Part shown: piece after piece, positions 32,761-61,083 of the stretch
Numbering within the stretch: the first letter of the stretch is position 1
How the letters are laid out: each line of letters starts with the position of its first letter
Origin: Artemia franciscana
Lineage: Eukaryota; Arthropoda; Branchiopoda; Anostraca; Artemiidae
Assembly: GCF_032884065.1 (NCBI RefSeq)
Contig: NC_088872.1
Location: 3,038,001-3,102,000 of the forward strand
Direction: 5' to 3'
Length of the DNA: 64,000 nucleotides
Made by a program: the position numbers and the translations under genes
The notes under the pieces: model-generated
Databases searched by the model: none
What the model was told of the DNA's origin: nothing
The model's input: only the letters and a program-made list of their open reading frames with translations

Positions 32761-33318
32761 ATGGGCGATCCATTTCTACTCTTTATCGGTGCAGTGTCAG
32801 GTTTAGTTATATTTGAGACTACCGCACAAATTGCCAAAAAAAACAAAATGGGCCGAAGAATAAAAAAATCAGCACATAACATTTCAGATTTTCTTCATAG
32901 GAGATCCAAATATTATTCTTTGCTCAGAAAAATGACAGAAGATAATGATCATCCTATAAAAGAAAAGCACAAGCAGCAATTATATGAAATGCCAAGCGAA
33001 TATTCACTTGAAATAATAAATTTGCTCGAAAAAGGAATTCGTAGCAAAAAATTATTTAAAGTGGAAACTTGTATATGTATTCTAATGTATTTGGTGAGAA
33101 ATTCCCAAGCATTCGTAGAAAATAATCATCGCGTACGAATAAAAAAATTTGTGAATGAAAACTTAGATGATCGTAAATTACAGTATATTTTTCAACGAAC
33201 AACAAACCTACATTCTGCATATTTTATCTTTGAATATACGAATGATCTACGAAAAGAACTAGCCTTACCACCTTTAGAATACAACTGGAAAGAACTGAAG
33301 CCTAATTTTTATTATTAA
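32761..33318 (+). CDS. TM-helical protein of the ankyrin-linked family, copy A
   Basis: 185 codons, ATG to TAA, the most intact member of a family I cannot name. Residues 4-20 (PFLLFIGAVSGLVIFET) are hydrophobic and could be a signal anchor. A basic patch follows (KKNKMGRRIKKS), then a predicted-helical domain with text conserved in all members: NIS..LHRR.K, KM.E...HPIKE, EIINLL.K, the Asn before .AF.E and HRVR. The tail has RKELALPPLE. In the 61 kb copy the same domain runs on into ankyrin repeats, so the ancestral product was probably a membrane-anchored ankyrin protein. Here a SINE fragment starts right at the stop codon and damaged ankyrin repeats follow at 33.4-33.85 kb. The ATG is supported by the shared hydrophobic start in copies B and C. 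It may still be expressed. No known domain was recognised. Confidence 0.6.
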   Translation: MGDPFLLFIGAVSGLVIFETTAQIAKKNKMGRRIKKSAHNISDFLHRRSKYYSLLRKMTEDNDHPIKEKHKQQLYEMPSEYSLEIINLLEKGIRSKKLFKVETCICILMYLVRNSQAFVENNHRVRIKKFVNENLDDRKLQYIFQRTTNLHSAYFIFEYTNDLRKELALPPLEYNWKELKPNFYY

Positions 33319-33405
33319 GAATTAACGACGCTTCTTGACTACTAAGGTCCCTGCAATAGCCCTGCAGTGCATTCCTGCAGCGTGATTCGATCTCTGGGTC
33401 CCGTA
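33319..33405 (-). repeat. SINE fragment, inverse of the one at 34.58 kb
   Basis: ATTAACGACGC, GACTACTAAGGTCCCT, TGCAGCGTGATTCGATCTCT and GGGTCCCGTA are the reverse complement of 34578-34662. It sits between the end of copy A and its ankyrin remnants. Confidence 0.65.
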
Positions 33406-33856
33406 ACTGGAGCCTAAGTCCACTTCCTTTAGTATTTTCAAAAGGATACACACAGACTGTTGAATGTCTCTTCAAGTATGATGCTGACGTTAATATAAGA
33501 ACTAACTATTGCAGAAGTCCACTTCATTTAGTAGCTTTGAAAGGATACAAACAGACTGTTGAAAGTCTCTTAAAAGTCTGGTGCTAACGTTAATATGAGA
33601 AATAATTATGATGGAAGTCCACTTCAGTTAGTTGCTTTAGCTGGATGCTCACACACTGTTGAAAGTATTTTCAAATATGGAGCCTATATAAACTCTAAGG
33701 AGAAAGATGTCCACTTCATTTAGCTACTTCACAAGGATACACACGGACTGCTGAATGTCTTTTAAGAATGTTAATTTAAGAACTAATCACGAAGAAAGGC
33801 CACTTCCTTAGCACCTTCGAAAGGATACACAGAGACTGCCGAATGTTTCTTAAAGT
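33406..33856 (+). pseudogene. Degraded ankyrin repeats of copy A
   Basis: About four and a half 33-residue units can be read across frames: SPLHLVALKGYKQTVESLLK, RNNYDGSP..LVALAGCSHT, and STSFSYFTRIHTD-type shifted pieces. Stops and shifts are frequent. The array is cut at 33856 by a Helitron 5' end. Confidence 0.7.
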
Positions 33857-34400
33857 CTAAAAATAAGTTGTATGTATGCATGTTTTTTCGTTTGTGGGTT
33901 TGTATATGACGTCATTATAAGTATATAAGGTTTTGTATATGACGTAATTATGACATGACACTACACACCGGGACACCGAGACACAAATCACGACCAGGAC
34001 ACAGGGAATATAAATGACGACCGGGACACTGCAAAGAAAAATTACAGACCGGGACACCGGGACACAGGGAAAATAAATGACGACCGGGACGACCGGAGCA
34101 CAGGGAATATAAATGACGACTGGGACACGGGGACAACTACAACGGGGACGCCGAGAGCACAGGGGAGATATATAAATGACGACGGGGACACAGGGAATTT
34201 TCGATTAGCAATCACCATCAACAAACCTCAACGGCAATCATTAGAAAAATGCGGTATAGATCTGAATACGGATTGTCTTTCCCATGGACAATTATATTTT
34301 GCATGTTCAAGAGTCGGTAAATCTCACAATCTATCTATATGCACAAACAATGGGACAGCGAAGAATGTTGAATATTCGCAAGTTTTACGTAGTTAAAAAA
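33856..34400 (+). mobile_element. Helitron H9, 3'-truncated
   Basis: TCTAAAAATAAGTTGTATG at 33856 opens the copy. GACGTCAT/GACGTAAT motifs, a GAC-type minisatellite (33960-34195) and a RepHel C-terminal remnant follow ([20 protein letters not shown].. to VLRS-stop, ending at 34397). No terminator; H10 starts immediately. Confidence 0.7.
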
Positions 34401-34510
34401 TATCTTATATATATATAAAAATAAGTTGTCTGTGTGTCTGTCGAGTGACATCACAGTCCGCATATGACGTCTGAATTATTTCATCACATACCAATTCAAA
34501 AACGAATGTA

Positions 34511-34663
34511 TTCAAGCCGAATTAGCTCAGTTATATAACTACCTGTGTTGGAGCTGTGGGTTTGACCTTAGCGTGGTAATACGGGACCCAGAGATCGAAC
34601 CATGCTGCAGGAATTCACTACAGGGCCGACGGAGGGACCTTAGTAGTCAAGAAGAGTCGTTAA
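34511..34663 (+). repeat. tRNA-derived SINE
   Basis: The head GCCGAATTAGCTCAGTTATA carries an A box; a weak B box (GGGTTTGACCT) follows. The ~85-base body (ACGGGACCCAGAGATCGAAC to AAGAGTCGTTAAT) recurs inverted at 33319-33405. It stands where the tRNA-like module stands in other Helitrons, with the true module just after it. Confidence 0.55.
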
Positions 34664-34679
34664 TCCGATACATAATACA

Positions 34680-34759
34680 AATACAGTAGCTCAGTTGGTA
34701 AAGCTTTATGTTCCAGGTTCTAGGTCCGAGAGGTTCCAGGTTCGAACCTTGGCTTTAGC
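34680..34759 (+). repeat. tRNA-like module inside a Helitron, copy 3
   Basis: TAGCTCAGTTGG A box (closer to the consensus than copies 1 and 2) and GGTTCGAACCT B box; the 3' acceptor strand CTTTAGC is kept but the 5' acceptor strand is replaced by ATACAG. Followed by ATTAATACAAAAG as in the other copies. Confidence 0.6.
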
Positions 34760-36035
34760 ATTAATACAAAAGAAGAAAAAAACTAAAAAAGATAAAAACT
34801 ACAACAAAGACTAAAAAGAAAATATTAAAAAAAACTAAAAAAGCTAATAAACTAAAAAAACTAAAAAAAGGGTAAAAAACTAAAAACTAAAAAAGTAAAA
34901 AAAAACTAAAAAAAAATACTAAAAAGGTAAAAAATACAAAAAAACTAAAAAGAAAAAAAAACTAAAAACTAATAAAAAACATAAAAATGCTAAAAAACTA
35001 AAAAAAAACTAAAAAAAGGGTAAAAACAGCAAAAAAACTAAAAAGAAAAAAACAACTTAAAACTAATAAAAAAAAACTGAAAAAGAAAAAATAACTAAAA
35101 AAAGGAAAAAAACTAAAAAATAAAGGAGAAAAAGATAATAAAATAAAAAGATAAAAGAAATAAAAATAAAAAAAAATAAAAAAGGTAAAAACTACAAAAA
35201 AAACAAAAAGAAAAAAGAAAAAAAAAGAAAAAGCTAAAAAAGGGTAAAAACCAAAAAAAAAAACTAAAAAGAAAAAAAGAAAAAAAAAAACAAAAAATTT
35301 ATTTCATCATATGCCAATTCAAAAACGAATGTATATACAGACCGGGACACAGGGAATATAAATGACGACCGGGACGCTCAAAGAGAAATTACAGACTGGG
35401 ACACCGGGACACAAATGACGACTGGGACGTGTGTCTCGACTGACGTCATGTTTGTGTGTCGACTGAAGTCATGTTTGTCGACTATAAACGACGACTGTGA
35501 CACAGGGACACAACTACAACGGGGACGCCAGGGGGCACAGGGAGATATATAAATGACGATGGGGGCACAGGGAATGTTTGATTAGCAATCACCATCAACA
35601 AAGTTCAAGGGCAATCATTAGAATAATGAGGTATAGATCTGAATACGGATTGTTTTTCCCATGGACAATTATATGTTGCATGTTCAAGAGTCGGTAAACC
35701 TGAAAATCTATTTTCATGTACAGACAATGGGACAGCGAAGAATATTCGTAAGTTTTAAAAAGCTAAAAAAAAAATAAAAAAAAAAAACAGAAAAAACTAA
35801 AGAATAAAAAAAATTAAAAAAAGAAATAACCTAAAAAGAAAAAACCTAAAAAAAATAAAAAAGGTAAAAAACTAAAAAGAAAAAAAAAGAAAAACAAATA
35901 AAAAGCTAAAAAATTAAAAAAAGAAAAACTAAAAAAGAAAAAATTAAAAAAGAAGAGAATATATATATATAAAAATAAAAAAACTAAATAACTAAAAGAA
36001 AAGAAAAAACTAAAAAATGAAAAAATATTAAAAAA

Positions 36036-38557
<2,522 letters not shown>

Positions 38558-39672
38558 TACTAAATAAAGAAAAAACTTAAAAGAAAAAATCTGAAAAAAA
38601 AAATTTTTAAATAAAAAAGCGAAATAAAGAAGAAAAAACTAAAAAAGAATACAAATAAAAAAAATAAAAAAAGAATAAAAAAAAAACTAAAATAACAAAA
38701 ATACTGCAAAACATCAAAAATCTAAAAAAAGAAAAAAACAAAAAAGAAAAAAAAAAGAAAAAAGGAAAACTAAGACTAAAAAATAAAACAAAACTAAGAA
38801 AAAGAAAAAAAAAGAAAAAAACTGGAAATTAAAAAACTTAAAAAGAACAATTTAAAAAACGAAAAAATAAAAAAAAACAAAAAAATAAAAAAAAATAATA
38901 AAAAAAAACTAAAAAAAAACTAAAGAAATTGAAATAAAAACTACTACTAAAAAAAAAACTAAAAAAGAAACAAATAAAAAATGAAAAAACTTTTGAATAA
39001 TAAGTATTCAAAAAAATTGAGGCTCTTTCAATTTTATTAAATTGTTTAAAATGTAAAAAACTGGGAATTGCACACATATTTCAATATATTTTGACAATGG
39101 ATTAAAGTAATTCGAAAACCTTAAAACAGGTACCCAAAAGGTTGAATTTTATTATAAATTGCTGAGCTTTAGCATGCTTGGCACGTAAAGATTTTTCCAA
39201 GTGTCAATGTCAGAATGAACATTGACAAATTGAAAATTGAAAAAAGATAGAATGTTATCAAAAAGCAAAACCAGGTGTGCGGTTCAAAGAGAAAAGGCCC
39301 GATTAGGAATATGCAATTTACGTCAACGAACGCGTGTCATGGAACTACCAGAGCAACACGAAACCAGACTTTCAGTTAACAGAGAAAGTAAAAAAAAGAA
39401 GGTGTGGCAAGAAATCACAAGAGCAAGGCGTCACAAGACTTGCTGCTGAAAGAGAATCTATTTATGACAATCTATTTATATGCACAGACAATGGGACAGC
39501 AAAGAATGTTGTATATTCGCAAGTTTTACGTAGTTAAGAAATATATATATCTATCTATATTTACAGGTGGGACACAGTGACACAACTACAATGGCGCCTA
39601 ACTAATATTGCCCGTAACGTTTTACGCGCGCAGGGGGGCTTGGGGGGCGCAAAGCGCCACACATACAGCTAG
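38558..39672 (+). mobile_element. Helitron H12 with a shortened RepHel frame and single terminator
   Basis: A-rich minisatellite (38560-38990); a block shared with 56860-57060, 61090-61260, 61690-61880 and 53280-53400, which includes the TGTCAATGT/ACATTGACA hairpin; an N-terminal Rep frame fused to the RepHel C terminus (39237-39537); short (AT)n; and one worn terminator ending CTAG at 39669-39672. Its 5' TC end is not visible; it abuts the CTAG of H11. Its 3' end lies exactly against an ankyrin repeat. Confidence 0.75.
39334..39537 (+). CDS. Deletion-fused Helitron mini-frame (Rep N-terminus to RepHel C-terminus)
   Basis: 67 codons: basic N-terminal repeat text (NYQSNTKPDFQLTEKVKKRR, then AAERESIYD) joined in frame to [22 protein letters not shown] and stop, the natural C terminus. 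Everything between, including the Rep and helicase domains, is deleted. Whether it is translated is unknown; its catalytic parts are gone. Confidence 0.5.
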   Translation: MSWNYQSNTKPDFQLTEKVKKRRCGKKSQEQGVTRLAAERESIYDNLFICTDNGTAKNVVYSQVLRS

Positions 39673-39800
39673 TTTCTTATATTAATATCAGCCTTACACT
39701 TGAAAAAACATTCAGCAGTATGTGTGTATGCTTTCGAAGGTGCTACATGAAGTGGACTTCTACCAAAAAACTGTTTTAAGAACCATCTCAATAACAAATG
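39673..39800 (-). pseudogene. Ankyrin fragment of copy B
   Basis: On the minus strand: GRSPLHVAPSKAYTHTAECF and FKCKADINIRN, roughly one ankyrin unit, cut by the 3' end of Helitron H12. It is preceded (39800-39980) by a linker also found at 52000-52120 and 54806-54900. Confidence 0.7.
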
Positions 39801-39979
39801 GTCAACAATAGATTGGAAATATAACTGAGAAGTACTCGACTCAGCAACATCAAACCACTTGTCAAGTGTACATATTCAACTATGTGTTATGTATTATCAA
39901 ATGAAGTCCACTTCAAGTTCTAAGTTCAGTAAATTTTGTAGAATTTTTACTCTTTTTATAAAAAAGTTGTCGATAGTTA

Positions 39980-40444
39980 TTACTTGTGTTTTTGTGAGCT
40001 AAGATGTTTTCTAGTTTCAGATAATGTAAATTTTGTTTTACTATTTTTTTTTCTTTTTGCGCGATGACCCTTTTCGGCGAATGCGCTATAGTTTTTAAGC
40101 AAGTGCGTAGCTATTATAATAAACTTGTCAATTTTGAAAACGTTATAGCAACGACTTGCTTTTTTGAGCAAATTTATTATCTCATTTGAATGGTCCAGCG
40201 GTGTTGCAGATAACATATTCAAATCCTCTTCTTTTATAGGATGATGGCCTCCTTCTTTCATTTTTATTATTAAAATGGCTACTTTGGGTCTCCTATGAAG
40301 ATAATTTGAAATGTTACGCACTGACTTTCTGGTTCTTCCAGCGATTTCGGTGTGTTTTACTTTTCCATAAACTATGGTTGTGACTTTTACTAAACCAATT
40401 ACCGTTAGTCCTCCAACTACGGTTAAAACAAACTGTTCAGCCAT
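39980..40444 (-). CDS. TM-helical protein of the ankyrin-linked family, copy B
   Basis: 154 codons, ATG to stop. The hydrophobic start (FVLTVVGGLTVIGLVKVTTI) is followed by a basic stretch and the family domain: RKSVRNISNYLHRRPKVAIL, KM.EGGHHPIKEED, NEIINLLKKASR and LLKNYSAFAEKGHRAKRKKN. It is alignable with copy A over its first ~120 residues, and much closer to copy C at 51445. The frame ends before the RKELALPPLE tail seen in A. Function unknown; probably membrane-anchored. Confidence 0.55.
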   Translation of the reverse strand: MAEQFVLTVVGGLTVIGLVKVTTIVYGKVKHTEIAGRTRKSVRNISNYLHRRPKVAILIIKMKEGGHHPIKEEDLNMLSATPLDHSNEIINLLKKASRCYNVFKIDKFIIIATHLLKNYSAFAEKGHRAKRKKNSKTKFTLSETRKHLSSQKHK

Positions 40445-41829
40445 TATTTCAATATTAAATAGAACTAATTTAATATAAACTCAAAAAATTACTTAACGAG
40501 TCATTTAAAGCAAAAGTATATCAAATCTAATTTAAAAATTTTCAGGTATTTTTCTAGTAGAATTAAAAAAAAAATCACTATTGCTCAGACAATAAAAATA
40601 TTTGTGCAGTTTGCAGTTAAATAAAATTATGTATTTCGAATCTTCAGGAATTATTCTAGTTTTTCATTTGTGTCCAAGAAGAAGACAATTAAAAAGATTT
40701 TCGCATATGAATTCGGATGAATTCTCCCTGTGTATAATTTCCCCTGACAGGTTCAGTCCCAGGCACTTTCCTTCCCATAGAGTTTTACCATAGAAAATTC
40801 ATTCATGAGAACTAATTGGAATTCTAATGTGTAGACTAATATATGACGATAGTGCTCAATACAAAAATAACACTTTGTTGACCAATACAGATGGTCTGAT
40901 GTAATACTGTGGTGTAACCCGTAACATATGTTTAAAATAACGTAGTTTTAGTTAAAATCATTTCGGAGGGCAAGCATCATACGAGACACAAATGAAAAGC
41001 TAGAATAATTCCTGAAAATTCTAAATAAAGTAATTTTATCTAACTGCAAACTGCACTAATTTTTCTGGGTTGGAGGGGGAAAAAGAAATCCTGGGAACTG
41101 GAAATCTTGGAAAAGGCTTAGAGTGGAGAGATCAAGATAAAACTTGATGGGAAGAATAAGCAAAAGTTATAGATATGAAATGGACATAATTTAGACAGAT
41201 CTGTTCTCTTTGGGGGAGCTGGGGGATGTAAATTTGGAAAAATGAGAAAAATTGAGGTATTTTAAACTTAAAAATGGGTGACCAGATCTTAATGAAATAT
41301 GACACTTAGAACGAACTCATGTCTCAGAGCTCTTATTTCAAAACCAGATCTGTTGACATTGAGGGAGTTGAAGGGGGAAACTGGAAATCTTGCAAAACGC
41401 TTACAAATGTCGTAAATACGTGATTAACGTAACCGAACTGGATCCGCTATCTTTGGGGCAGTCTGGGGGGGGGGTTCTGTGCTTTGGCAAGTTTGGTGCT
41501 TCTGGTAGTGCTAGGACGATGAAAATTGGTAGGTGTGTCAGGGAGCTGTAGAAATTGACTTGATAAATTCGTTTTCCCTGATTCGACCGTCTGGAGGGCT
41601 GAAGGGAGAGGGAAAATTGAAAAAATTGAGGTATTTTTAACTTAGAAGTTGATCATCGGATCTTAATGAATTTAGATATTTAGAAAGACTTCGTGACTCA
41701 GAGCTCTTATTTTAAATCCTACCCGGCATTAAGCCTCTGATTTTCTTCTTAAAGCAATGTATTGATTCTTAGAATTTTGCTTGAGCTCATACCATATGAG
41801 CTCTTGGCACTTAGCTTGTCCAACCTCGT

Positions 41830-44780
41830 CGTACCCAGGAATCACAAGAGCAACCTGAAAATTATCGCCTGGCATTCAGGTACAGCCCAGTCAATGATTA
41901 TAGCTTGAGTAGATGTGTTCAAATCGGGACTATGTCTAAAATTTATCCCTATTGCAAGGCCTTGAAATTTAATGGTGAAACAATGGGAATGTGTTGCGCC
42001 TCAGGAAAAGTTAAACTTCCTCAACGTCAGAATCTAACCGTTTTTTTGTCAAACATCAGAAAATATAACTCATGTTTCCAAATGACGTCGTTTGGTGCCC
42101 AAATCGAAAATAAAGATCAATTTATGCCTACTTTCAAAGTAAAAGGGAAAACATATCATAGAGCAGGGTTCCTTCTACCATTCTCAGGAGAGAGTTATAA
42201 ATTTGTACAACTGTACTTCATCAGTGATAGCAATTCTGAATTGAATGCACGCTGCGAAATTTCTCCCGACGTTGAAAGGACTATCGTTTCCCAATTGCAA
42301 CATCTTTTCCACAAAAATAATGATTTAGTGTGCCTGTTCAAAACAGCAAACGATTTGATGCCTACTGATAGGCATAAAATTGTTATTTCTGTCTATAAAA
42401 CGCCTACTGGCGAACATGTGCGTAGATACAATGCTCCAACTATCGACGAAGTAGCAATCGTTATTGTTGGTGATCAGTTTTTACGTCTAGATATTATTCC
42501 TCTATAAGCGAAACGTTCAGTTGGTAAGAATTGCTGAAATTTATCGATGCTACGATGCCCAGCAATATCCTATCATTTTTTGGGATGGAGCCGACGGCTT
42601 TCACTTTAATAATAAATTGATAGATCCATCCAATAACAAACAAACGGATAAGAAATGCAGTGCAATGAATTATTTTACCTATAGACTAATGATTCGTCAC
42701 AATGAAGAAAATTATATTTTAAAATGCCGTCAATTGTTTCACAAATACATCGTTGATAATACATACTTCTAATGAAATTGACGATGTGATTTCTGCTGAA
42801 ATACCTGATGAAAATGTAGATAACGGCTTATATGATATTGTGGTAAAAATATGATACATTTACCTTGCAGTGCACTGAACGAAAACTCACCATGCATGGC
42901 CAAAGGAAGGTGCACAAAGCAATATCCTCGACTTTTAGTATCCAACACAATTACCGGCAATGATGGTTACCCACTATATAGAAGAAGATCTACTGAAGAT
43001 GGTGGTAAAACAGCAGTATTAAAGAAGCATAACGGTACCACCATCGAAGTAGATAACCAGTGGGTTGTTCTATATTCACCTTTATTAACAAAAACATTTA
43101 ATGCTCACATAAACATTGAATACTGTAACTTCATAAAGGCAATCAAATAAATATGTAAATACGTCAACAAACGCAGCGACATGGCAGTTTTTGGCTTGCA
43201 GTACAAAATCAGTGATATCAATGAAATTGTACAATATCAGGTTGGAAGATACATAAGCCGTAATGAAGCTGTTTGGCAAATTCTTTCATTTCCGATATAT
43301 GAAAGAAGTCCAGCTGTTGTTCACTTAGTAGTACATTTACAGAATGGACAACGTTTTTATTTTTTTAGAATCCAACGTGCAACAAAGAGCTCTGAATCCA
43401 ACGGATACAACGTTAACTGCTTTCTTTTCGTTATGTCAAAATGATTCTTTTGCAAAAAAACTGCTGTATACTGAAGTACTTTCGTATCATACGTGGAATG
43501 TTAAAAAGAAATCATTTGAACGTCGAAAACAGGGTATGTCAGTCGATGGTCAACCTGCTATCTTTGAAGATACTGCGATAGGAAGACTCTACACCATTCA
43601 CCCCAATCAACATGAATGCTTCTTCCTCCACCTGCTTTTGGTGAATGTACCTGGTCAGACGTCCTGTGAGTATTTGAGAACTGTAAACGGTACTATACAT
43701 GACACTTACCGTAGTGCATGCCAAGCTCTAAATTTATTGGAGAATGACCAACACTGGGATAACTGCATCAATGACGCGTGCGTAACGTCAACTCCAAGTC
43801 AAATTCATGCATTGTTTGGAATCATACAAACATCATGCTCTCCCTCAGCTCCTAAAGAGTTATGGGAGAAATATAAATCGAAAATGGCCGAGAATTTACT
43901 GCATCGAAAAAGGTTAGAGACGCCGTATATGACCTTTGATTTAACATAAGAAATTTATAACTAAACTTTAATTATTATTGAAGTTTTGTGCCTATGTATG
44001 GCAAACAAACTTCTTCAGGATTTGGGAATGCCTTCACCTAATAGTAACGCTGCTGTTTCAGCATGTGTAGAACTGGATCGTGAAGAAAGTTACAATACGA
44101 TCTATTGTCGTATGTACAAAAAATATTTTTAAGTTAACGTCTGAGCAAAACGACATTTATGAGAAGATATAGCATTGTGTAGATAACAACGTTGGAGAAA
44201 TCTTCTTTTTGGATGCGCCAGGAGGTACTGGTGAAAAGTTTGTGATAAAATTGATTCCGGCATCAATTTGATAATAAAATGACTTAGTGTTGGCAATTGC
44301 GTCGTCCGGAATAGCCGCAACGTTGCTGCCTGGCGGAAGAGCTGCTCATTCTGCTTTGAAATTGCCTCTGAATTTGTATTATAGGGAAATTCCCTAGTGC
44401 AATATTTCCAAATTATCCGGGATGGGTAAAGTATTGCAGCAATACAAACTTATTATTTGGGACGAGTGCACATTAGCACACAAAAAATTGCTCGAGGCCC
44501 TGGAGCAATCGTTACAAGGTTTGCGAGGAAATTTGAAACCCTTTGGCAGCACATGAATATTCTTTGCGGGGTATTTCAGGTAATCATTATCTATAATACC
44601 TAGATCAACCCCTGCGGACGAAATGAATGTTTGCCTGAAAAATTCTAATTTATGAGCACACGTAAAGACATTAAAATTAAGTATAAATATGCCTGTCCGA
44701 TTGCAAAACGATGACTGTGGTGAAATATTTTCAGATCCATAGCTGGCAATTGGAAACGGACCGTATAACTCACAATAAAC
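41830..44780 (+). pseudogene. Helitron RepHel relic, longest coding copy in the window
   Basis: In order: RLAFRYSPVNDYS and CPYCKALKFNGETMGMCCAS (41850-42020); SNIRKYNSCFQMTSFGAQIE to VAIVIVGDQFLRLDII (42030-42507); Helitron_like_N (42521-42765); a deletion that removes the HUH histidines; SALNENSPCMAKGRCTKQYP (42863 on); the Rep tyrosine motif at ~43150, read as stop-ICKYVNKRSDMAV, so the first Tyr codon of YxxKY is TAA while the second Tyr remains; NEIVQYQVGRYIS; a 201-codon frame 43344-43949 ending FDLT; then a Pif1-like helicase start with Walker A as GGTGEKF (GKT expected) and an intact IIWDECT Walker B (44456). It fades after ~44780. Several frames, stops and a lost Rep centre make it inactive. 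Confidence 0.9.
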
Positions 44781-48480: not shown

Positions 48481-48489
48481 CGCAACAGG

Positions 48490-49217: not shown

Positions 49218-49308
49218 AAATTTATGTCTGATGTATGAATCGAACTAAAGACCTATTATTTCCTATGGTAAATGAACGACACGTTAGTCGACTAAGCTGA
49301 CAAGTCAT
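49218..49308 (-). repeat. Possible tRNA-derived sequence
   Basis: On the minus strand, GTCAGCTTAGTCGACTAACG resembles an A-box/D-arm and AGTTCGATTCATAC a B-box/T-arm, at tRNA-like spacing. The T stem pairs poorly. Weak call. Confidence 0.3.
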
Positions 49309-51444
49309 TAATGATATTATATTCTTAGAAACACAATCTAGGCAATCGGTGTATTGCTACTAGGACGGTAACCAACTGATGTTAAGCGTCACAATATCGT
49401 AACAAATTAACTGCACAATCGATTTCTCAATTGAAGTTGGGCAGATGGTAAATACTATCAGTGATATGCTTCCGGGTGCCGTTTTTGGAATCATCCTATG
49501 AATTTACATACAAAAGTGATTTAAGATGCTTAATGTACAGACATGTTCTTTTGATGGTTAATGACATAGGAGAACTGCTGCCATTTCGGATCCTTCAATT
49601 GTAATGCTTTTAGGGGCAGTGCTTTCTAGTTAAAGAACTATAAGTCTCATTATATTTTGGTTTCAGGTGGTCATTTGGTTGGAAACTAAAAGTTCTTGAG
49701 GACTTCAGGACAACTGACCCTCTTCCACCCTTTTGTTTATTACCTGGCCCCTCTGAAACACTCAAGGACACCCACTCAGAAATACGTCAAAATCATTAAA
49801 AGGTCCAATAGATATGCCTCTAGAAAGGGTGACTTTTTTGATGTGGATGTGTAATTGGCTCCAAACTGTCACAAATCGTTCTGCAAGTCAAAAGGATCAA
49901 AACGTTAATTGGGAAGTAAAAAGTAAGTAGTCCAGAAACTGACCAAAAAAATATTATTTTCTGATTGGTTTTAACTTACAGGTGTAATTCCTTGAGCCAA
50001 GAGGAAACTTAACTTGTAAAAAAAGGGATAAGTCCCTTTCCTTAAAAAAATGGCCCGACATACGGACGAGCTAAGTGCCAAGAGCTCATATGGTATGAGC
50101 TCAAGCAAAATTCTAAGAATCAATAGATTGCTTTAAGAAGCAAATCAGAGGCTTAATGCCGGTTGGGATTTAAAATAAGAATTCTGAGTCACGAAGTCCT
50201 CCTAATATCTAAATTCATTAAGATCCGATCACCAACTCGTAAGTTAAAAATACCTCAATTTTTTTTAATTTTTCCTCTCCCTTCAGCCCTCCAGATGGTC
50301 GAATCAGGATAAATGACTTTATCAAGTCAATTTCTACAGCTCCCTGACACACCTACCAACTTTCATCGTCCTAGCACGACCAAAAGCACCAAACTTGCCA
50401 AAACACTGAACCCCCCCCCCTAACTGCCCCAAAGATAGCGGATCCAGTTCCGTTACGTTAATCACGTATTTACGACAATCATAAGTGTTTTGCAAGATTT
50501 CCAGTTTCCCCCTCCAACTCCCCCAATGCCAACAGATCTGGTTTTGAAATAAGAGCTCTGAGACATGAGTTTGTTCTAAATATCATATTTCATTAAGATC
50601 TGGTCACCCATTTTTAAGTTTAAAATACCTCAATTTTTCTCATTTTTCCAAATTTACATCCCCCAGCTCCCCCAAAGAGAACAGATCTGTCTAAATTATA
50701 TCCATTTCATATCTATAACTTGTGCTTATGCTTCCCATCAAGTTTTATCTTGATCTCTCCACTCTAAGCCTTATCCAAGATTTCCAGTTTCCAGAATTTC
50801 TTTTTCCCCCTCCAACCCAGAAATATTAGTGCAGTTTGCAGTTAGATAAAATTAATTTATTTAGAATTTTCAGGAATTATTCTAGCTTTCCATTTGTGTC
50901 TCGTATGATGTGCTTGCCCTCCGAAATGATTTTAACTAAAACTACGTTATTTTAAACATATGTTACGGGTTACACCACAGTATTACATCAGACCATCTGT
51001 ATTGGTCAACAAAGTGTTATTTTTGTATTGAGCACTATCGTCATATATTAGTCTACACATTAGAATTCCAATTAGTTTTCATGAATGAATTTTCTATGGG
51101 AAAGTTCTATGGGAAAGAAAGTGCCTGGGACTGAACCTGTCAGGGGAAATTATACACAGGGGGAATTCACCCGAATTTATATGCGAAATTCTTTTTAATT
51201 GTCTTCTTCTTGGACACAAATGAAAAACTAGAATAATTCCTGAAGATTCGAAATAAAATAATTTTATTTAAGTGCAAACTGCACAAATATTTCTATTGTC
51301 TGAGCAATAATGATTTTTTTTTTTAATTCTACCAGAAAAATACCTGAAAATTTTTAAATTAGATTTGATTTACGTTTGCTTTAAATGACTCGTTAGGTAA
51401 TTTTTTGAGTTTATATTAAATTAATTCTATTTAATATTGAAATA

Positions 51445-51900
51445 ATGGCTGAACAGTTTGTTATAACCGTAGTCGGAGGACTAACGGTTATTGGTTTAGT
51501 AAAAGTTACAACCATAGTTTATGGAAAAGTAAAACACACTGAAATCGCTGGAAGAACCAGAAAGTCAGAGCGTAATATTTCAAATTATCTTCATAGGAGA
51601 CCCAAATTAGCCATTTTAGTAATAAAAATGAAAGAAGCCATCATCCTATAAAAGAAGAGGATTTGAATATGTTATCTGCAACACCCCCGGACCATTCAAA
51701 TGAGATAATAAATTTGCTCAAAAAAGCAAGTCGGAGCTATAGCGTTTTCAAAATTGACAAGTTTATTATAATAGCTACGCACTTGCTTAAAAACTATAGC
51801 GCACTCGCCTAAAATGGTCATCGCGCAAAAAGAAAAAAATAGTAACACAAAATTTACATTATCTGAAACTAGAAAACATCTTAGCTGGCAAAAACACTAG
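51445..51900 (+). pseudogene. TM-helical ankyrin-linked family, copy C (frameshifted)
   Basis: Nearly the same as copy B at its start (MAEQFVITVVGGLTVIGLVK, RKSERNISNYLHRRPKLAIL). Relative to B (GAAGGAGGCCATCATCC) it has lost 4 bases after KMKEA (GAAGCCATCATCC), which ends the frame at 51651. The remainder (HHPIKEEDLNMLSATPPDHS, NEIINLLKKASRSYSVFKID) continues in another frame to ~51860 with a further stop. So C is a pseudogene of B's type. Confidence 0.75.
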
Positions 51901-51984
51901 TAATAACTATCGACAACTTTTTTGTAAAAGAGTAAAAATTCTACAAAATTTACTGAACTTAGAACTTGAAGTGGACTTAATTTG

Positions 51985-52209
51985 ATAATACATGACACAT
52001 AGTTGAATATGTACACTTGACTAGCGGCTTGATGCTGCTGAGTCGAGTACTTCTCAGTTATACTTCCAATCTACTGTTGACCATTTGTTGTTGAGATGGT
52101 TCTTAAAACAGTTTTGTGGTAGAAGTCCACTTCATTTAGCACCTTCAAAAGCATACACACATACTGCTGAATGTCTTTTCAAGTGTAAGGCTGATGTTAA
52201 TATAAGAAA
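51985..52209 (+). pseudogene. Linker and ankyrin unit of copy C
   Basis: The linker (GAGTCGAGTACTTCTCAGTT to AAAACAGTTTTGTGG) runs into GRSPLHLAPSKAYTHTAECL and FKCKADVNIRN, and is cut at 52209 by the 3' end of the minus-strand Helitron. It mirrors 39673-39850. Confidence 0.7.
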
Positions 52210-53740
<1,531 letters not shown>

Positions 53741-54049
53741 TTTTTTTATGATATCTAATCCTCAGCAAATTATTTCCATGATTTGGGTATAATTGGGACT
53801 CCCACTTCTCCTGCCCACTGCATCCGCTCCAAGAAGTATCGCCTTCTGCCAATTCAATTAGAAAGAGCTAGATTCCCAATCAGATACCAGATTCCTCATG
53901 ACTGAGGAATCATGAGGAGTCTCGAAGTTTCACAAGTCGATTTTCTTTGAAAAAACATATTGATTGAGGAGTCCCGAAGTTTCAAAAGTCGATTTTCTTT
54001 GAAAAAACATATTTCAAAAATAATTCTTTGCCTGGATGTCGGGATTGAT
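53741..54049. other. No feature seen
   Basis: A short near-duplicate (GAGTCTCGAAGTTTCACAAG..GAAAAAACATAT, then GAGTCCCGAAGTTTCAAAAG..GAAAAAACATAT, about 50 bp period) around 53917-54011 is the only structure noticed. Confidence 0.4.
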
Positions 54050-54321
54050 TAATAATAGATTCTAGTATGTATTTTGCTGTGGTGTTCTTGCGCTGGGGTG
54101 GCCTCCCCTATGATCTCCTACCTTGTATGTTTTTTTTCTCTCGTATGTTTTTTTTGTCTTAGTTTTTTCTCTCTCCTTTTGGAATTATTAGTATGACGAG
54201 ACGTTGTGTTTTTTTATGCATTTGTGCTGCCTCGGCCTTACGAGTTCTGCTCTCTGTTTGGGCAAAATACTGTTTTTGTATATTTTTAATTTGAATTATT
54301 AAATATTGATTGATTGATTGA
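54050..54321 (+). repeat. Probable LINE 3' UTR ending in (ATTG)n
   Basis: Moderately complex T-rich sequence (GTTCTTGCGCTGGGGTGGCC, CTCGGCCTTACGAGTTCTGC) ends in ATATTGATTGATTGATTG, the short-microsatellite tail typical of CR1/L2-group LINEs. There is no coding part, so this is inference from the tail. Confidence 0.4.
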
Positions 54322-54329
54322 ACAAACTG

Positions 54330-54790
54330 TAGTAAGGAGCGACACGGCTCAATAGTAAACGGAACTCTAAAAAAAGAATTTTGATGCTAAAAGATACATC
54401 AAAAGAATCGTATTTTCATGCTGATTTTAAATATATAAGTTTCATCAAATTTAGTCTTTGTCGTCAAAAGTTAAGAGCCTGAGAAAATTTGCCTTATTTT
54501 GGAAAATAGGGGGAAATACCCACTAAAAGTCATAGAATCTTAACGAAAATCACACCATCGCATTCAACGTATCAGAGAAATGTATAGCGAAACCCCTCCG
54601 CAATCCCACGCTCTTTACGCTAAAGTTTAACTCTGTGCCACAATTCTACGTTTTAAAACAATTAAAAACTTTAACGTAAAGAGCGAGGGATTGCGGAGGG
54701 GACAACCCATTTCACATACGGAGTAATATCTGTTCGTTTTAAGTTTTAATGTCTCTCCTTACTTTCAGTTTAAAAAAAACTAGTTTTTTT
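54330..54790 (+). repeat. Dispersed repeat R1, internally deleted copy
   Basis: Starts TAGTAAGGAGCGACACGGCTC and ends ATGTCTCTCCTTACTTTCAG as in R1. The middle ~1 kb is missing: after AACGTATCAGAGAAATG it jumps to CTCTTTACGCTAAAG...CTTTAACGTAAAGAG, which is a large inverted repeat. Confidence 0.7.
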
Positions 54791-54805
54791 TATTTAATAA
54801 TACAT

Positions 54806-55245
54806 GAGTCGAGTACCTCTCAGTTATATTTCCAGTCTTTTGTTGACCATTTATTGTTGAGATAGTTCTTAAAACAGTTTTGTGGTTTGTGGAGCATCGG
54901 TATCTTGCAGGTATTTGTTCCAGAGGTTGTTAACATGGCTGGTGAGAAAATGGGCGCGTTGCCGCTTTGAGTAGAAATACCTGGATAACTGTAAGTTTTA
55001 TCCTCTTGATATAACTTAGTCCTGAGACGCCAGAGGAAAGAAATAATTAGGATAGACATCCACTTCATTTAATTACTTTAGCTGGATGCTCACATACTGC
55101 TGCAAGTCTTCTCAAATATGGAGTTCTATGTTAACTTTAAGGACAAGGATGACAGGACACCACTTCATTATTCTATTTATTCTGGAGCTGATGTTAATAT
55201 AAGAACTAATTATAAAGAAAGTCCACTTCCCTTTGCAGCTTAGGT
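54806..55245 (+). pseudogene. Partial TM-ankyrin family copy (linker plus ankyrin)
   Basis: 54806-54885 repeats the linker of copy C. Sequence to ~55050 is not seen in the other copies. Then ankyrin text: HLITLAGCSHTAASLLKYGV, DRTPLHYSIYSGADVNIRTN and ESPLPFAA. The frame is broken. It is cut at ~55250 by a Helitron fragment. Confidence 0.6.
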
Positions 55246-55254
55246 TGGCCGTCG

Positions 55255-55490
55255 ACTGACTTACCCTGTTTCCGACGTTCAAATTATTTCTTCTTAGCAT
55301 TCCACGTGTAATACGAAGGTACTTCAGTATACAGCAGTTTTTTTCAAAAAGAATTATTTTGACATAACGAAAAAAAAGCAGTTAACGATATATCCGGTTG
55401 ATTCAGGGCTCTTTGTTTCACGTTGGATTCCAAAAATAAATACATTGACCATTCTGAAAATGTACAACTAAGTGAACAACAGCTGGACTT
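55255..55490 (-). pseudogene. Helitron RepHel fragment
   Basis: On the minus strand, HLVVHFQNGQCIYF, ALNQPDISLTAFFSLCQNDS and a TAVY..STFVLHVEC stretch in another frame correspond to 43320-43500 of the long relic. It lies back to back with the next, plus-strand fragment. Confidence 0.7.
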
Positions 55491-55499
55491 CGTTCAAGC

Positions 55500-56025
55500 G
55501 TTTTTTATTACACATCAGAAAATATAACTCATGTTTCCAAATGACGTCGTTTGGTGTCTAAATCGAAAATCAAGATCAACTTATGCCTACTTTCAAAGTA
55601 AAAGGGCAAATTTATCATTTAGGAGCAGGATTCCTTCTTCCATTCTCAGGTGAGAATCATAAATTTTTACAACTGTACTTCATCAGTGATAGCAATTCTG
55701 AATTGAATGCATGTTCTGAAATTTCTCCCGACGTTGAAAGGGCTATCGTTTCCCAATTGCAACATCTTTTCCACGAAAATAATGATTTAGTGCGCGTGTT
55801 CAAAACAGCAATCGATTGGATGCCTACTGATACGCATAAAATTATTATTTTCACTGACAAAACGCCTACTGGCAAAAATGTGCGTAGATACAACGCTCCA
55901 ACTATCGACAAAGTGGCAATCGTTATGGTCGGTGATCAGTTTTTAACCTGAAAATCTATTTATATGCACAAACAATGGGACAGTGAAGAATGTTGTATAT
56001 TCGCAAGTTTTATGTAGTTAATTTG
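55500..56025 (+). pseudogene. Helitron N-terminal fragment joined to the RepHel C terminus
   Basis: The text HIRKYNSCFQMTSFGV precedes a 122-codon frame (55583-55951) reading MPTFKVKGQIYHLGAGFLLP, YFISDSNSELNACSEISPDV and PTIDKVAIVMVGDQFLT. In the next frame [24 protein letters not shown]-stop follows at once. About 1,000 residues of Rep and helicase are deleted between. Followed by (TATC)n at 56030-56060. Confidence 0.75.
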
Positions 56026-56031
56026 TATTAA

Positions 56032-56063
<32 letters not shown>

Positions 56064-56066
56064 TTT

Positions 56067-57808
56067 TCTATATATAAAAATAAGTTGTATGTCCGTCTGT
56101 TACGCTTATATAAAAATAAGTTGTATGTATTTTTTTGTTCAGGGTTTGCATATGACTTCTGAAAAATAAAGAAGAAAAAGAAAACTGAAAAAAGAAAAAA
56201 AAGGATAAAAAACTAAAAAAATAAAAAGAAAAAAACAAAAAAAAGAAAAAAAACCTAAAAAGAAAAAAAATCTAAAAAAAACTAAAAAGCTAAAAAACTA
56301 AAAAAAAAAGAAAAAACTACAAAGAAAAATTAAAAAAAGGAAGAGAAAACATATATATATATATATAAATAAAAAAAGCGAAAAAACTAAAAAAGAAGAA
56401 AAAACTAAAAAAGAATACAAATTAAAAAAAGGAAGAAACTAAAAAAAAACTAATTAAAGAAAAAACCTGAAGAGAAAAAACTAAATAATGAAGAAAAAAC
56501 TAAAAAAGAATACAAATTAAAAAAAAGGAAGAAACTAAAAAAAACTAAAAAAAACTAAAATAAGAGAAAAACTGAAAAAACATCAAAATCTGAAAAAAAG
56601 AAAAAACAAAAAAAGAAAAAAAATTAAAAAAGAAAAACTAAGACTAAAAAATCAAAAAACTAAAAAAAAAGAAAAAATAATAAAACAAAAATAAAAAATA
56701 GAAAAGAAACAACTAAAAAACTAAAAAAAGTAAAAAAATAAAAAAAAAATAAAAAAAGACAAAACTAAAGAAAAAGAAAGAAAAAATAAAAAACAAAAAA
56801 AACTAAAAAGAAACAAAATAAAAAAAGAAAAAAAGCCTTAGGATAATAACTATTCCAAAAAATTGAGGCTCTTTCAATTTTATTAAATTGTTTAAATTAT
56901 TAAAAACTGGGAATTGCACAAATATTTCAATATATTTTGAAAAAAGAATAAAGTAATTCGAAAACTTTAAAACATATACCCAAAAGTTTGAGGTTTATTA
57001 TAAATTGTTGAGCTTTAGCATGATTGGTACGTAAAGATTTTTCCAAGTGTCAATGTTAGAATGAACATTGACAAATTGAAAAACACTGAGAAAGATAGAA
57101 TTTAACCAAAAAGCAAAAACAGGCTTGCGGTTCAAAGAGAAAGGGCCAGATTAGGAATGTGCAATTTACGTCAACGACGGCGTGTCAAGGCACTACCATA
57201 GCAACGCGAAACCAGACTTGCAGTTCACAGAGAAATTAAAAAAGGAGGTTTGTCGAGAAATCACAAGAGCAGCATGAAAACAGGCTTGCGGCTTTAAGAG
57301 AAAATGCCAAAAGAAAGCGTACCGAGGAATCACAAGAGCAACGTGAAAATTATCGCCTGGCATTCAGCTACAGCCCAGTCGATGATTATAGCTTGACTAG
57401 ATGTGTTCAAATCGGGACTATGTCTAAAATTTGTCCCTATTACAAGGCCTTGGAATTTAATGGTGAAACAATGGGAATGTGGTTCGCCTCAGGAAAAGTT
57501 AAACTTCCTGAACTGGTTGCACCACCATAAGAATTTGCTTACTAGAACTACGTAAGCGTTTTTTATCAAACATCAGAAAATATAGCTCTTGTTTCCAAAT
57601 GACGTCGTTTGGTGCCCAAATCGAACACCAAGATCAATTTATCCCTACTCTCAAAGTAAAAGGGCAAATTTATAGTAGAGCAGGGTCCCATCTACCATTC
57701 TCAGGTGAGAATCATAAATTTTTATAACTGTACTTCGTCAGTGATAGCGATTCAAAATTGAATGCACGTTGCGAAATTTCTCTTGACGTTGGCACCACAC
57801 CAACAGTT
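56067..57808 (+). mobile_element. Helitron H14, ending against ankyrin repeats
   Basis: 5' TC at 56067, with a second 5'-like end at ~56104. Then a long A-rich minisatellite (56165-56850), the shared block with the TGTCAATGT/ACATTGACA hairpin (57048-57073), and N-terminal Rep coding (57080-57540: basic repeats, RLAFSYSPVDDYSLTRCVQI, CPYYKALEFNGETMGMWFAS). SNIRKYSSCFQMTSFGAQIE-like text follows to ~57790, and a worn 3' end CACACCAACAGTTAG at 57808. CPYC and MCC of the Cys motif are altered here. Multiple shifts; non-functional. Confidence 0.75.
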
Positions 57809-59785
57809 AGTAAGAAATAATTATGATGGAAGTCCACTTCATGTAGCTGCTTTAGCTGGATGCCAACAGACTGTTGATTGTCTTCTCAAATATGTAGCCT
57901 ATGTTAGCTCTAAAGACAAGGATGGCAGGACACCGCTGCATTATTCTATTTTTTCTTGAGCTGATGTTAATATAATAACTATTTATGAAGAAAGTCCGCT
58001 TCCCTTAGCAGTTCGAAAGGATGCACAGAGACTGTTGAATGTTTCTTATAGTCCGGTTCTGATGTCAATATAAGAACTAAATAAGAAGAAAGTCCACTTC
58101 CCTTAGCAGCTTCGAAAGGATGCACACAGCCTGTTGCATGTCTTTTAAAGTATGACGCTGATACTAATATGAGAAATAATAAAGATGGAAGTCCACTTCA
58201 TTTTTCTTCTTTAGCTAGATGCCACCGCACTGTTGAAATTCTTTTCAAATATGGAGCCTAGGTTAACTCTAAGAACAAGGATGGCAAGACATCGCTTCAT
58301 TATGCTATTTTTTCTGGAGCTGATGTTAATATAAGAACTAATTCTGAAGATAGTCCACTTCCTTTAGCAGCTTCGAAAGGATACATACATACTGTTGAAT
58401 GTCTCTAAAAGTCTGGTGCTGACGTTAATATAAGAACTAATTATGATAGAAATCTACTTCTCTTAGTGGCTTCAAAAGGATACACACAGACTGCTGAATG
58501 TCTTTTACATTACAACACTGATGTAAATAAACTAATCAATTATGATGGAAGTCCTCTTCATTTAGTATATTTAGCTGGATGCTCACATACTGTTGAAAGT
58601 CTTCTAAAATATGGAGCCTATGTTAACTCTAAGGATAAGGATTACAGGACACTGCTTCATTATGCTATTACTTCTGGAGCTGATGTTAATATAAGAGCTA
58701 ATTATGAAGAAAGTCCACTTCCCTAAGCAGTTTCGAAAGGATAAAAACAGACTGTTAAATGTCTCTTAAAGTCTGGTGCTTACGTTAATATAAGAACTAA
58801 TTATGGTAGAAGTCCACTTCATTCAGTAACCTTGAAAGGATACGCACAGTCTGCTTAATATGACACTGATGTTAATATAAAAAATAATTATGATGAAAAT
58901 CCACTTCATTTAGCGGCTTTAGCTTGATGCTCACATACTGTTGTAAGTCATTTCAAATATGGAGCCTATATTAACTCTATGGATAAGGACGGCAGGACAG
59001 CGTTTCATTATGCTATTTTTTCTGGAGCTGATGTTAATATAAGAACTAAATAAGAAGAGAGGCCACTTCCTTTAGCAGCTTCGAAAGGATATACGCAGAC
59101 TGTTGAATGTCTTGTAAAGTATGACGATGATGTTAATATAAGAAATAATTAATCCACTTCATTTAGCTGCTATAGCGGGATGCTCACATACTGCTGAAAG
59201 TATTCTCAAATATGGAGCCCATCTCTAAGAATTGGAGCTCTAAGAAAGTCCACTTCTTTAGCTTGTTCGAAAGGATACACTCAGACTGTTGAATGTATTT
59301 TAAAGTCTGGTGCTGAAGTTACTATAAGAATTAATTATGGTAGAAATCCACTTCCCTTAGCAAGTTCAGAAGGATACGCACAGACTGCTGAATGTTTTTT
59401 AAGTATATTAATATACGAACTAATTATGTAGAATGTCAACTTCCTTTAACTGCTTCGAAAGTATACACACAGACTGTTGAATGTCTCTTAAAGTTGATGC
59501 TGACGGTCATATAAGAACTAAATATGGTAGAATTCCACTTCATTTAGCAGTTTTGAGAGGATACAAGAAATAATTATGATGGAAGCCCACTTCATTTAGC
59601 TACTTTATCTGGATGCTCACATACTGTTAAACTCTAAGGACAAGGATGCCTCACTTCATTAGGCTGCTTTATCTGGATTCTCAGATACTGTTCAAAGTGT
59701 TCTCAAATATGGACACTATGTTAACTCTAATGACAAGTGGATTACAGGACACCACTTCATTAAGCTATTTTTTCTGGAGTAGGCT
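57809..59785 (+). pseudogene. Ankyrin repeat array, plus strand
   Basis: About 18-20 decayed ankyrin units. Best text: RNNYDGSPLHVAALAGCQQT with KDGRTPLHYSIFS (57813-57958), and LINYDGSPLHLVYLAGCSHT with LLKYGAYVNSKDKDYRTLLH (58530-58660). Units occur in a fixed cycle of three ~33-residue repeats plus a short ~20-residue one (GRTPLHYAIFS-GADVNIR). The GCTGATGTTAAT landmark therefore recurs at 57961, 58320, 58680 and 59028 (period ~350-360 bp). Two 65- and 86-codon frames remain open. No start or N-terminal domain is found on the left, where Helitron H14 ends. Confidence 0.85.
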
Positions 59786-60625
59786 TTTACCATAGTTAGT
59801 TTTTATATTAACATCAGCACCAGACTTTAAGAAACATTCAATAGCATGCGTGTATCCTTTCGAAGCTGCTAAAGGGAGTGGACTTTGTTCATACTTAGTT
59901 CTTATATTAACTTCAGCTCCAAAAAAATAGCATAATGAAGCACTGTCCTACCATACTTGCCCTTAGAGTTAATACAGGCTCCAAATTTGAGAAGACGTTC
60001 AGTCTCTGAGCATCCAGCTAAAGCCGCTAAATGAAGTGGACTTCCATCATAATTATTTCTTTAAGCATCAGTTTCATACTTTAAAAACATTCAACAGTCT
60101 GTGTGTATCCTTTTGAAGCTGCTAAATGAAGCGGATTTCTACAATAATTAGTTCTGATATTAACATCAGCACCACACTTTAAGAGACATTCAATAGTGTG
60201 CGTATATCCTTTCGAAGCTTATAAAGGAAGTGGACTTTCTTCCTAATTAGTTCTTATATTAAAATCAGCTCCAGAATAAATATCATTATGAAACGCTGTC
60301 CTGCCATCCTTGTCCTTAGATTTAACATAAGCTCCATATTTGAGAAGACATTCAACAATCTGTGAGCATCCAGCTAAAGCAGCGAAATGAAGTGGACCTC
60401 CATCATAATTATTTCTTAGATTAAAATTAGTGTCATACTTTAAAGATACACAACAGTCTGTGTGTATCGTATCGAATATACTAAATGAAGTGGACTTGTA
60501 CCATAATTAGTTCTTATATTAAAGTCAGCACCAGACTTTAAGAAACTTTCAACAGTCTGTTTGTATTCTTTCGAAGTTGCTAAATTAAGGGGAGTTTTAC
60601 CATAATTACTTCTTCTTAGTTAGGT
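59786..60625 (-). pseudogene. Ankyrin repeat array of copy D, minus strand
   Basis: Downstream part of the copy D gene: SNYGKTPLNLATSKEYKQTV, RTNYGTSPLHL, and at its far end EQSPLPLAASKGYTHAIECF with LKSGADVNIKTNYGK. About eight units with the same cycle (CAGCTCC landmarks at 60265 and 59914, ~351 bp apart). It collides tail-to-tail with the plus-strand array at ~59785. Confidence 0.8.
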
Positions 60626-61083
60626 TCTGCTTAGTTACACCATTGATTGGCTCCAGTTCTTTTTCTTGCCAGTCCTAATTCTAAAGGTGGTAAGGCTAGT
60701 TCTTTTCGTAGAATTTCAACTCTGCTATAGAAATTGCGTTGATATTACATAGTTATTTTTTTTGGTGTAAAAATACAAGTCAGTATTAGCATCATCTTAA
60801 TTTTGTGTTACTGTTTTTTCTTATTCTTACGCGATGATTATTTTCAGTGAATGATTGACAATTTCTTATCAAGTGCCTAATTACTTTTATGCACTTTTGC
60901 ACTATGAAATGGTTTTTTCTCCGAATTCCTTTTTCGAGCAAATTTATTATTTCAATCAAATATTCGCTTTGGATATCCGATAATTACTGCATATTCTTTT
61001 CTTTTGTAGGATGATGATTTCCTTCTGCCATTTTTCTTAGCAAAGTAGCTAATTTTGATCTCCTATGAAGATAATCTGAAATG
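60626..61083 (-). pseudogene. TM-helical ankyrin-linked family, copy D (N-terminus lost)
   Basis: The minus strand reads ISDYLHRRSKLATLLRKMAE, NHHPTKEKNMQ-stop, EIINLLEKGIRRKNHFIVQK, LIRNCQSFTENNHRVRIRKN, then after a gap RKELALPPLELGLARKRTGA. It is closest to copy A. The hydrophobic start is missing because a Helitron piece begins at ~61088. This copy shows best that the domain is followed directly by ankyrin repeats (from ~60625). Confidence 0.75.

Follow-up and report, generated by a model that had tools for sequence, protein, structure and literature searches.

A family of small genes with a putative signal anchor and a divergent ENTH-like domain, its dispersed upstream block and a neighbouring ankyrin-derived satellite in Artemia franciscana

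A stretch of 64,000 nucleotides of the Artemia franciscana genome (positions 3038001-3102000 of contig C10; the window) carries four related frames, copies A to D, and behind each of them ankyrin-like text on the copy's own strand. Which protein do these copies encode, and does the ankyrin text belong to it? The original prediction for this locus had described an unrecognised membrane-anchor and helical domain that is linked to ankyrin repeats and multiplied among Helitrons. Its observation is mostly right, its interpretation half right. Computed directly from the DNA were a family of single frames, its hydrophobic-then-basic N-terminus, its distant likeness to ENTH domains and the broken ankyrin tract. 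The explanation that we favour, and regard as reasonably probable, is one of small single-frame genes that occur as a clustered family; their products would begin with a signal anchor and continue through a basic stretch into a divergent ENTH-like domain, and the ankyrin text would be a dead, separate satellite.

A tblastn search of the window with copy A bore out all four copies at the places and on the strands that had been given for them. Copy A (32761-33318, plus strand) was read as an uninterrupted frame of 185 codons (32761-33315) plus stop, and is indeed open despite its ruined ankyrin part. Copy B (39980-40444, minus strand) is an open frame of 154 residues; it was matched at 40444-40046 (E 1.4e-22), and its likeness to A stops at 40046. 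Copy C (51445-51815, plus strand) is of the B type and has a frameshift near 51630, where two differently framed matches starting at 51445 join (E 3.4e-13). Copy D (60679-61082, minus strand) is broken and was matched at 61082-60798 with 61% identity and one stop (E 1.2e-32). In the alignments A, B and C begin with the hydrophobic N-terminus, which D lacks, just as predicted.

In domain searches copy A alone gave nothing notable. Compared with the PDB, profile A1 (14 family sequences) found epsin ENTH chains at E values of 8.2e-4 and 2.2e-3, and profile A3 (18 sequences) found epsin ENTH at 2.3e-4 and 2.7e-4, followed by more epsins. The reversed control profile A4, made from 10 of the A3 sequences, reached a best E of 0.54 in the PDB and found no ENTH. 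Seven ENTH domains from the animal's own genome (1.27 Gb, of which the window is part) were aligned with the profiles by HHalign. This comparison gave P 3.5e-5 over 101 columns and a probability of 72% for A3, P 1.6e-3 and 16% for A1, which lacks the C2905 rows, and 0.48 with a probability of 0.1% for the reversed family profile. Homology to ENTH was thus found at the level of profiles, though modest by usual standards (PDB E 2.3e-4, HHalign P 3.5e-5), and the domain is not wholly unrecognised. The part of copy A that aligns to the genome's own ENTH profile, its ENTH-like core, covers residues 35-135 (32863-33165, plus strand). Pfam ENTH matches below the cut-off were obtained for 3 of the 14 A1 members, three of four frames on contig C2905 and both frames on contig C1281, and in these matches the Pfam profile always begins at the same serine before an L-x-R segment.

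A bridge between the family and ENTH is formed by diverged members on C1281 and C2905. Copy A matches a place on contig C20, L023, with E 1.5e-15; L023 matches C2905 and C1281 with E 2.7e-5 and 6.4e-5; and a C1281 place reaches 23.8 bits (E 0.03) with the Pfam ENTH profile PF01417, or 25.2 bits when neighbours are included and stops read through, the cut-off being 24. In a tree of 23 chosen rows, which carries a long-branch warning, 13 family rows group together (95/96), and these 13 and three bridge rows are separated from the seven ENTH rows (100/100). The genome as a whole matches the ENTH profile at 66 places with E <= 10, 55 of them over the Pfam cut-off; these are places, not genes. Animals usually carry only a handful of ENTH genes.

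From these comparisons the domain looks like a very divergent relative of the epsin ENTH domain. It is named ENTH-like here and not certified as ENTH, since the likeness lies at profile level and single members score below the cut-off. Several results weigh against this assignment. Pfam ENTH was absent at E <= 1 in 11 of the 14 A1 members, copy A among them; neither A nor B exceeds the 24 bits of PF01417 in the window, and the best open frame of a relative (L037) stays under them with 20.8 bits. HHalign probabilities of only 72% (A3) and 16% (A1) point in the same direction. Structure prediction, proposed earlier as a check, was run with AlphaFold2 on five window rows: the model is all-helical, with a predicted local distance difference test (pLDDT) score of 41 and a predicted template modelling (pTM) score of 0.24, which is too poor for a fold search. 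The known ENTH fold is a right-handed superhelix of 7-9 helices. By eye, the positions which we take to form the lipid pocket of epsin are mostly lost in copy A. A lysine after an H-V-Y motif is present in the C20-type members and in B and absent in A, as read by eye in alignments A3 and A5 with presumed epsin positions.

These same results are what an unrelated all-helical domain would give if its likeness to ENTH were a convergent helix pattern: every single-frame match is below the cut-off, no HHalign probability exceeds 72% and the predicted fold (pLDDT 41) is unusable. Against convergence stand the constant register of the matches, the diverged clusters, which yield the same family, and the clean reversed controls. 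We consider this explanation rather unlikely and retain divergence from ENTH. Other candidates were rejected. For a phage, viral or prokaryote gene, no relative was confirmed among pattern stretches in viral contigs (6) and genome contigs (61), and phages gave one weak match (E 0.2). PHROGs yielded scattered, weak matches (0.0016 at best, for 2 of the 14 members), and in Pfam Coq4, DUF4467, Ppx-GppA (3 of 14 members, best 0.0075) and similar families were matched only weakly.

The N-terminus was examined on the Kyte-Doolittle scale. In 13 of the 14 A1 rows it is hydrophobic, with 19-residue means of 0.96-1.98, and is followed by a net charge of +4 to +9. In copy A the segment comprises residues 4-22 (32770-32826, plus strand; maximum 1.72), followed by a net charge of +6. 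By the positive-inside rule positive charges stay on the cytosolic side of a membrane. Applied to the basic stretch, this rule places the ENTH-like domain in the cytosol, and the hydrophobic-then-basic order suggests a signal anchor. An anchor in the mitochondrial outer membrane is an equally fair guess. The weak hydrophobicity of this segment in L017 (1.39), L024 (1.02) and L025 (0.96) speaks against an anchor; L022, the fourteenth row, lacks its N-terminus in the frame analysed.

Fold, topology, location, partner and expression of the family protein are what we infer from these data, and they lead to the following model. The N-terminus would cross a membrane or insert partly into it, and the basic residues that follow would retain the ENTH-like part on the cytosolic side. 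Epsin is kept at membranes by phosphoinositide binding and helix 0; here the anchor would assume that task, and a protein partner would be bound at the membrane by the domain's surface. If this is true, an endocytic adaptor domain that usually depends on lipid binding to stay at membranes has been turned into a small protein with its own membrane anchor and multiplied in tandem clusters. No report of a membrane-anchored ENTH-like form was found among the papers listed in the one open-access library to which the literature search was limited.

The likeness to epsin ENTH (PF01417; PDB 7b2l, 5ahv) covers roughly 80 residues in the PDB chains, in the same register where checked, and includes the all-helical character, which for the family is a prediction of low confidence. 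The family differs in remaining under the curated cut-off and in the hydrophobic stretch, which occupies the place of helix 0 in alignments A3 and A5 (by eye). Epsins carry a long C-terminal tail with ubiquitin-interacting motifs (UIM) and clathrin, AP2 and EH motifs. The family protein, in contrast, continues only briefly behind the domain. In open members about 10-50 residues remain past the aligned part, too few for a long tail of this type. An epsin-like gene of the own genome (L030, C10:26217288) shares the ENTH region by profile but has an open frame of 493 residues with a long low-complexity tail, and its 1.5 kb of 5' DNA lack the upstream block described below. Other ENTH genes (L031-L036), found at many places, likewise carry ENTH in long open single frames; they exceed the ENTH cut-off and show neither an N-terminal anchor nor, in the sequence examined, the block. 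Among them, L034 (474-4769, plus strand) is an open frame of 1432 residues with one ENTH domain and a long, internally repeated Ser/Pro-rich tail. L035 (665-2353, minus strand) and L036 (509-2401, minus strand) are open frames with two ENTH domains each and, by eye, a hydrophobic segment near the C-terminus; L036 also has TPR/SNAP-like sequence.

Is such a protein still in use? Ratios of nonsynonymous to synonymous substitution rates (dN/dS) were calculated by the Nei-Gojobori method (NG86) for 20 chosen pairs, and are below 1 between most distant members tested. In 11 of the 20 pairs dN/dS was 0.36-0.63, and at most 22 of 1000 bootstraps reached 1; for L017-L024 (0.37) and L024-L021 (0.36) none of 1000 bootstraps did. 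For the remaining nine pairs, among them copy A with its closest paralogues, a ratio below 1 is not clear, and this weighs against current use. Copy A gave 1.01 with L009, 0.87 with L010 and 1.22 with L013, values indistinguishable from 1. The other unclear pairs are L009-L013 (0.61), L010-L013 (0.56), B-C (0.73), L022-L023 (1.33), L020-L021 (1.03) and L009-L010, where dN/dS was 0.36 but 30 of 1000 bootstraps were at or above 1. NG86 is moreover rough at high divergence, and some rows were partial frames. With dN/dS below 1 in 11 of 20 pairs and near 1 for A, the family is judged to have been kept, whereas copy A may be decaying. The suggestion that the N-terminal domain has value alone is supported for the family, whose open members have their own stops; copy A by itself is weak evidence of current use.

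That every copy is by now a pseudogene of a formerly active gene, without a product today, is quite unlikely. Copies C and D are defective, copy A appears neutral and many matches contain stops, as such a history would have it; yet several diverged members are open (L009, L011a, L012, L017, L023, L024 and one copy on contig C596), and dN/dS is below 1 between distant members.

Own-genome searches returned 29 matches with copy A, 55 with the C20 member L023 and 100, from the best 150 of 201 candidates, with the C1281 member L038; the three sets overlap, many matches contain stops, and the counts are lower bounds. The matches cluster on C10 near 1.68, 2.08, 2.20 and 3.07-3.23 Mb, on C20 at 4.04-4.27 Mb, on C596, on C2905 at 334-358 kb, on C1281 and on C5 at 54.51-54.59 Mb, while a few are scattered over C1, C9, C14, C19 and C177. 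Open members consist of one frame each, about 150-185 residues long from ATG to their own stop, in which a short hydrophobic N-terminus is followed by a basic stretch and the helical domain; most of those read end in an L-x-L-P-P-like or similar terminus near the stop. Such genes would multiply by local tandem and segmental duplication, swap parts through recombination and decay fast. One member, L015 (8234-8752, minus strand), is an open mosaic joined near residue 64 with the frame kept. Up to residue 64 it follows the A/L009 type (54/63 identical to L009, 23/60 to L011a) and from there on the L011/L012 type (40/108 and 97/108, respectively). On C5 (54507469-54587317) matches of equal score recur every 10.4-10.5 kb or so, mostly with stops, which suggests a tandem array whose units each contain several distant copies of the domain. 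Members of the L011, L012 and L014 type have downstream of the domain a retroelement frame resembling a zinc knuckle and aspartic protease (motifs by eye); the frame of L011 gave no Pfam match.

The ankyrin text does follow each of the four copies on its own strand, as had been observed. After copy A lies a broken, ankyrin-derived repeat of about 99 bp (33416-33858, plus strand), after B an ankyrin-like repeat of about 93 bp (39673-39766, minus strand), after C another (52121-52219, plus strand) and after D a set of broken ankyrin-derived repeats (59774-60614, minus strand). The window further contains ankyrin-like DNA at 55039-55241 and an array of about 99-bp units in a 360-bp period (57811-59565, plus strand), whose longest open piece (58409-58723) matches Pfam Ank_2 with 1.4e-9. 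A regular-expression scan for ankyrin gave no match.

Twenty-seven family copies were examined for ankyrin-like text over 4 kb on the strand of the domain. The text starts less than 700 bp from the start of the domain in 10 copies, lies only 2.3-3.1 kb away in 3 and is absent from 14. In none of the 13 copies that have it (A-D, L009, L010, L013, L017, L018 twice, L019, L023 and L024) do the domain and an ankyrin array share an uninterrupted frame. Whatever the frame, no ankyrin tract runs for more than 264 bp (L009) without a stop, except that of L018a, where a stretch of 507 bp belongs to the frame of the following domain copy. The units of L018 are about 95% alike and carry a stop (16/16 and 6/6 matches; 10/12 in L017), and units so alike and stop-bearing have been amplified as DNA. 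The same satellite stands inverted about 80-110 bp past the stop of a gene on contig C383 which, by eye, encodes a secreted protein (L052, L056); identity is 92-96% in the longer matches (L052), and the satellite was not seen in the shorter flank of L057. On these repeats and frames the ankyrin tract is best described as a separate, broken, ankyrin-derived satellite of about 99 bp and not as part of a protein architecture. It derives from ankyrin coding sequence such as Ank_2, and differs from ankyrin repeat proteins in that the copies read have no array open in frame with the domain. The linkage to ankyrin repeats that had been proposed as a protein order is thus not supported.

Did a genuine fusion gene of ENTH-like domain and ankyrin repeats, perhaps spliced, once exist, with the ankyrin half now decayed in the copies examined? 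The close same-strand text in 10 of 27 copies would fit this, as would L018b, where the ankyrin text is in the same frame after one stop, and L009, which retains a stop-free ankyrin piece of 88 codons. The 14 copies without such text, the amplification of the stop-bearing L018 and L017 units at the DNA level and the inverted satellite after the unrelated C383 gene oppose it and make a former fusion very unlikely. A domain copy and ankyrin text side by side, a caution of wider use, need not be one protein. Elsewhere in the genome open ankyrin frames of up to 1165 residues among the matches listed were found (C15:10.85-11.18 Mb, C14, C4 and C228). The animal therefore probably has live ankyrin genes; none of the frames listed was seen joined to the ENTH-like family.

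A second sequence accompanies the family on its 5' side. This upstream block lies at 32575-32740 (plus strand) for copy A, 40445-40674 (minus strand) for B and 51213-51444 (plus strand) for C, and a partial block without a domain copy at 63432-63522 (plus strand) confirms the upstream-only piece reported at 63430. As a dispersed repeat the block is delimited as 40486-40662 for B and 51225-51440 for C. It spans about -185 to -40 from the ATG and precedes the domain in 17 of the 27 copies; in the L011/L012/L014 type another sequence stands upstream, and the other copies without the block are cut or partial. Among four family groups (ten rows) the block is 69-89% identical, whereas the coding starts below it are 50-67% identical and the sequence above it is near chance, except for B versus C20 (0.55). 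Inverted half-copies were observed some 250-400 bp beyond the blocks of A (32223-32295, minus strand), B (40985-41066, plus strand) and C (50819-50900, minus strand), and near many other family copies too. An Rfam scan of 50700-51900 gave nothing near the gathering score.

With 51213-51440 as query, a genome-wide search gave at least 45 block matches from the best 40 of 1294 first-look candidates. At 20 listed places outside the family clusters, an ATG frame of at least 90 residues begins soon after the block in 9 and one of at least 200 residues in 8, against a random background (window and L009-L028) of 11.6% and 2.8%, respectively; the other 11 places have no such frame. In a second sample, 8 of 28 newly listed places, four have a frame of at least 170 residues at the expected start and four do not. 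Altogether the block precedes an unrelated open frame in 13 of 28 sampled places (the L042-L069 set). They comprise an EF-hand frame in two near copies (EF-hand_1 1.5e-7), a Metallophos frame (4.1e-23; a PPP-type phosphatase by eye), a kinase (PK_Tyr_Ser-Thr 3.9e-5, barely over its cut-off; Pkinase 1.3e-5, under its own), an actin (6.5e-72), a VPS13_N frame (8.5e-17, short of the cut-off), a short frame that matches TPR weakly, an unassigned frame that is HECT-like by eye and five by-eye secreted proteins, several of them alike. Because of the near copies and alike frames, about 8 kinds and not 13 independent cases should be counted.

Seventeen chosen rows, of which nine are ENTH-like, gave 96 pairs between unrelated kinds. 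In these pairs identity over the opening 150 columns of the aligned 5' flanks is 0.72-0.86 per 30-column bin, and it declines toward the ATG, whose position is nearly constant at block coordinate 215-233 or so. The coding starts are 0.37 identical, about chance. The 3' flanks, of which few complete ones were compared, are not common between kinds, the satellite excepted. The block was found at none of 11 ENTH-type or bridge loci (L029-L039, including the epsin-like gene) and not in shuffled sequence; the absence is weak at several of these loci because little upstream sequence is available there. Most simply, the block would be a repeat scattered through the genome that serves as promoter or 5' leader; it may also be a transposon end carrying captured genes. 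More tentatively, and with doubts that outweigh our confidence, a repeat-derived promoter cassette of about 150-200 bp could drive unrelated single-frame genes as one regulon comprising the ENTH-like, actin, PPP-type phosphatase, kinase, EF-hand, VPS13-like and secreted proteins, with the epsin-like family expanded under this cassette. Assigning the regulon to one cell type, for instance the germ line, would be guesswork. The common block offers a testable case of a repeat that wires many unrelated single-frame genes into one expression programme.

Helitrons are neighbours of the family both in the window and at C596. Helitron transposase remains, outside the gene, were found by coding matches at 41827-44760 (plus strand), with further fragments in the window, and a piece resembling the transposase N-terminus (61084-61164, minus strand; a weak match of 27 residues, E 4.4e-5) abuts the first codon of D. 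The description of a hydrophobic, basic and probably helical unit multiplied in a Helitron-rich place is supported. Near a C596 copy, L025 (2132-6631, minus strand) is an open Helitron transposase frame of 1500 residues (PIF1, Helitron_like_N), in which Pfam found no ENTH-like domain.

If the domain genes were cargo, that is, passengers captured by a Helitron or other transposon with the upstream block as the element's end, Helitron pieces should not surprise next to several copies, nor should the 1500-residue frame about 0.7 kb downstream of the C596 copy on the same strand, the dispersal of the block with its inverted half-copies, or the Helitron-like sequence directly upstream of the block in L044. 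But the family matches listed are concentrated in few local clusters, the 3' flanks are not common between unrelated genes, with the satellite and the small number of complete flanks as reservations, and D is truncated at the Helitron-like junction instead of being carried. We hold the cargo explanation to be improbable. Multiplication by Helitrons finds no support in the matches, most of which sit in a small number of local clusters.

Finally, many near-complete COX1 copies were noticed in the genome, several of them on chromosome-size contigs. Translated with the invertebrate mitochondrial code, in which AGA is serine, COX1 yields by eye a protein of arthropod type. The many copies would be nuclear mitochondrial insertions or assembly effects.

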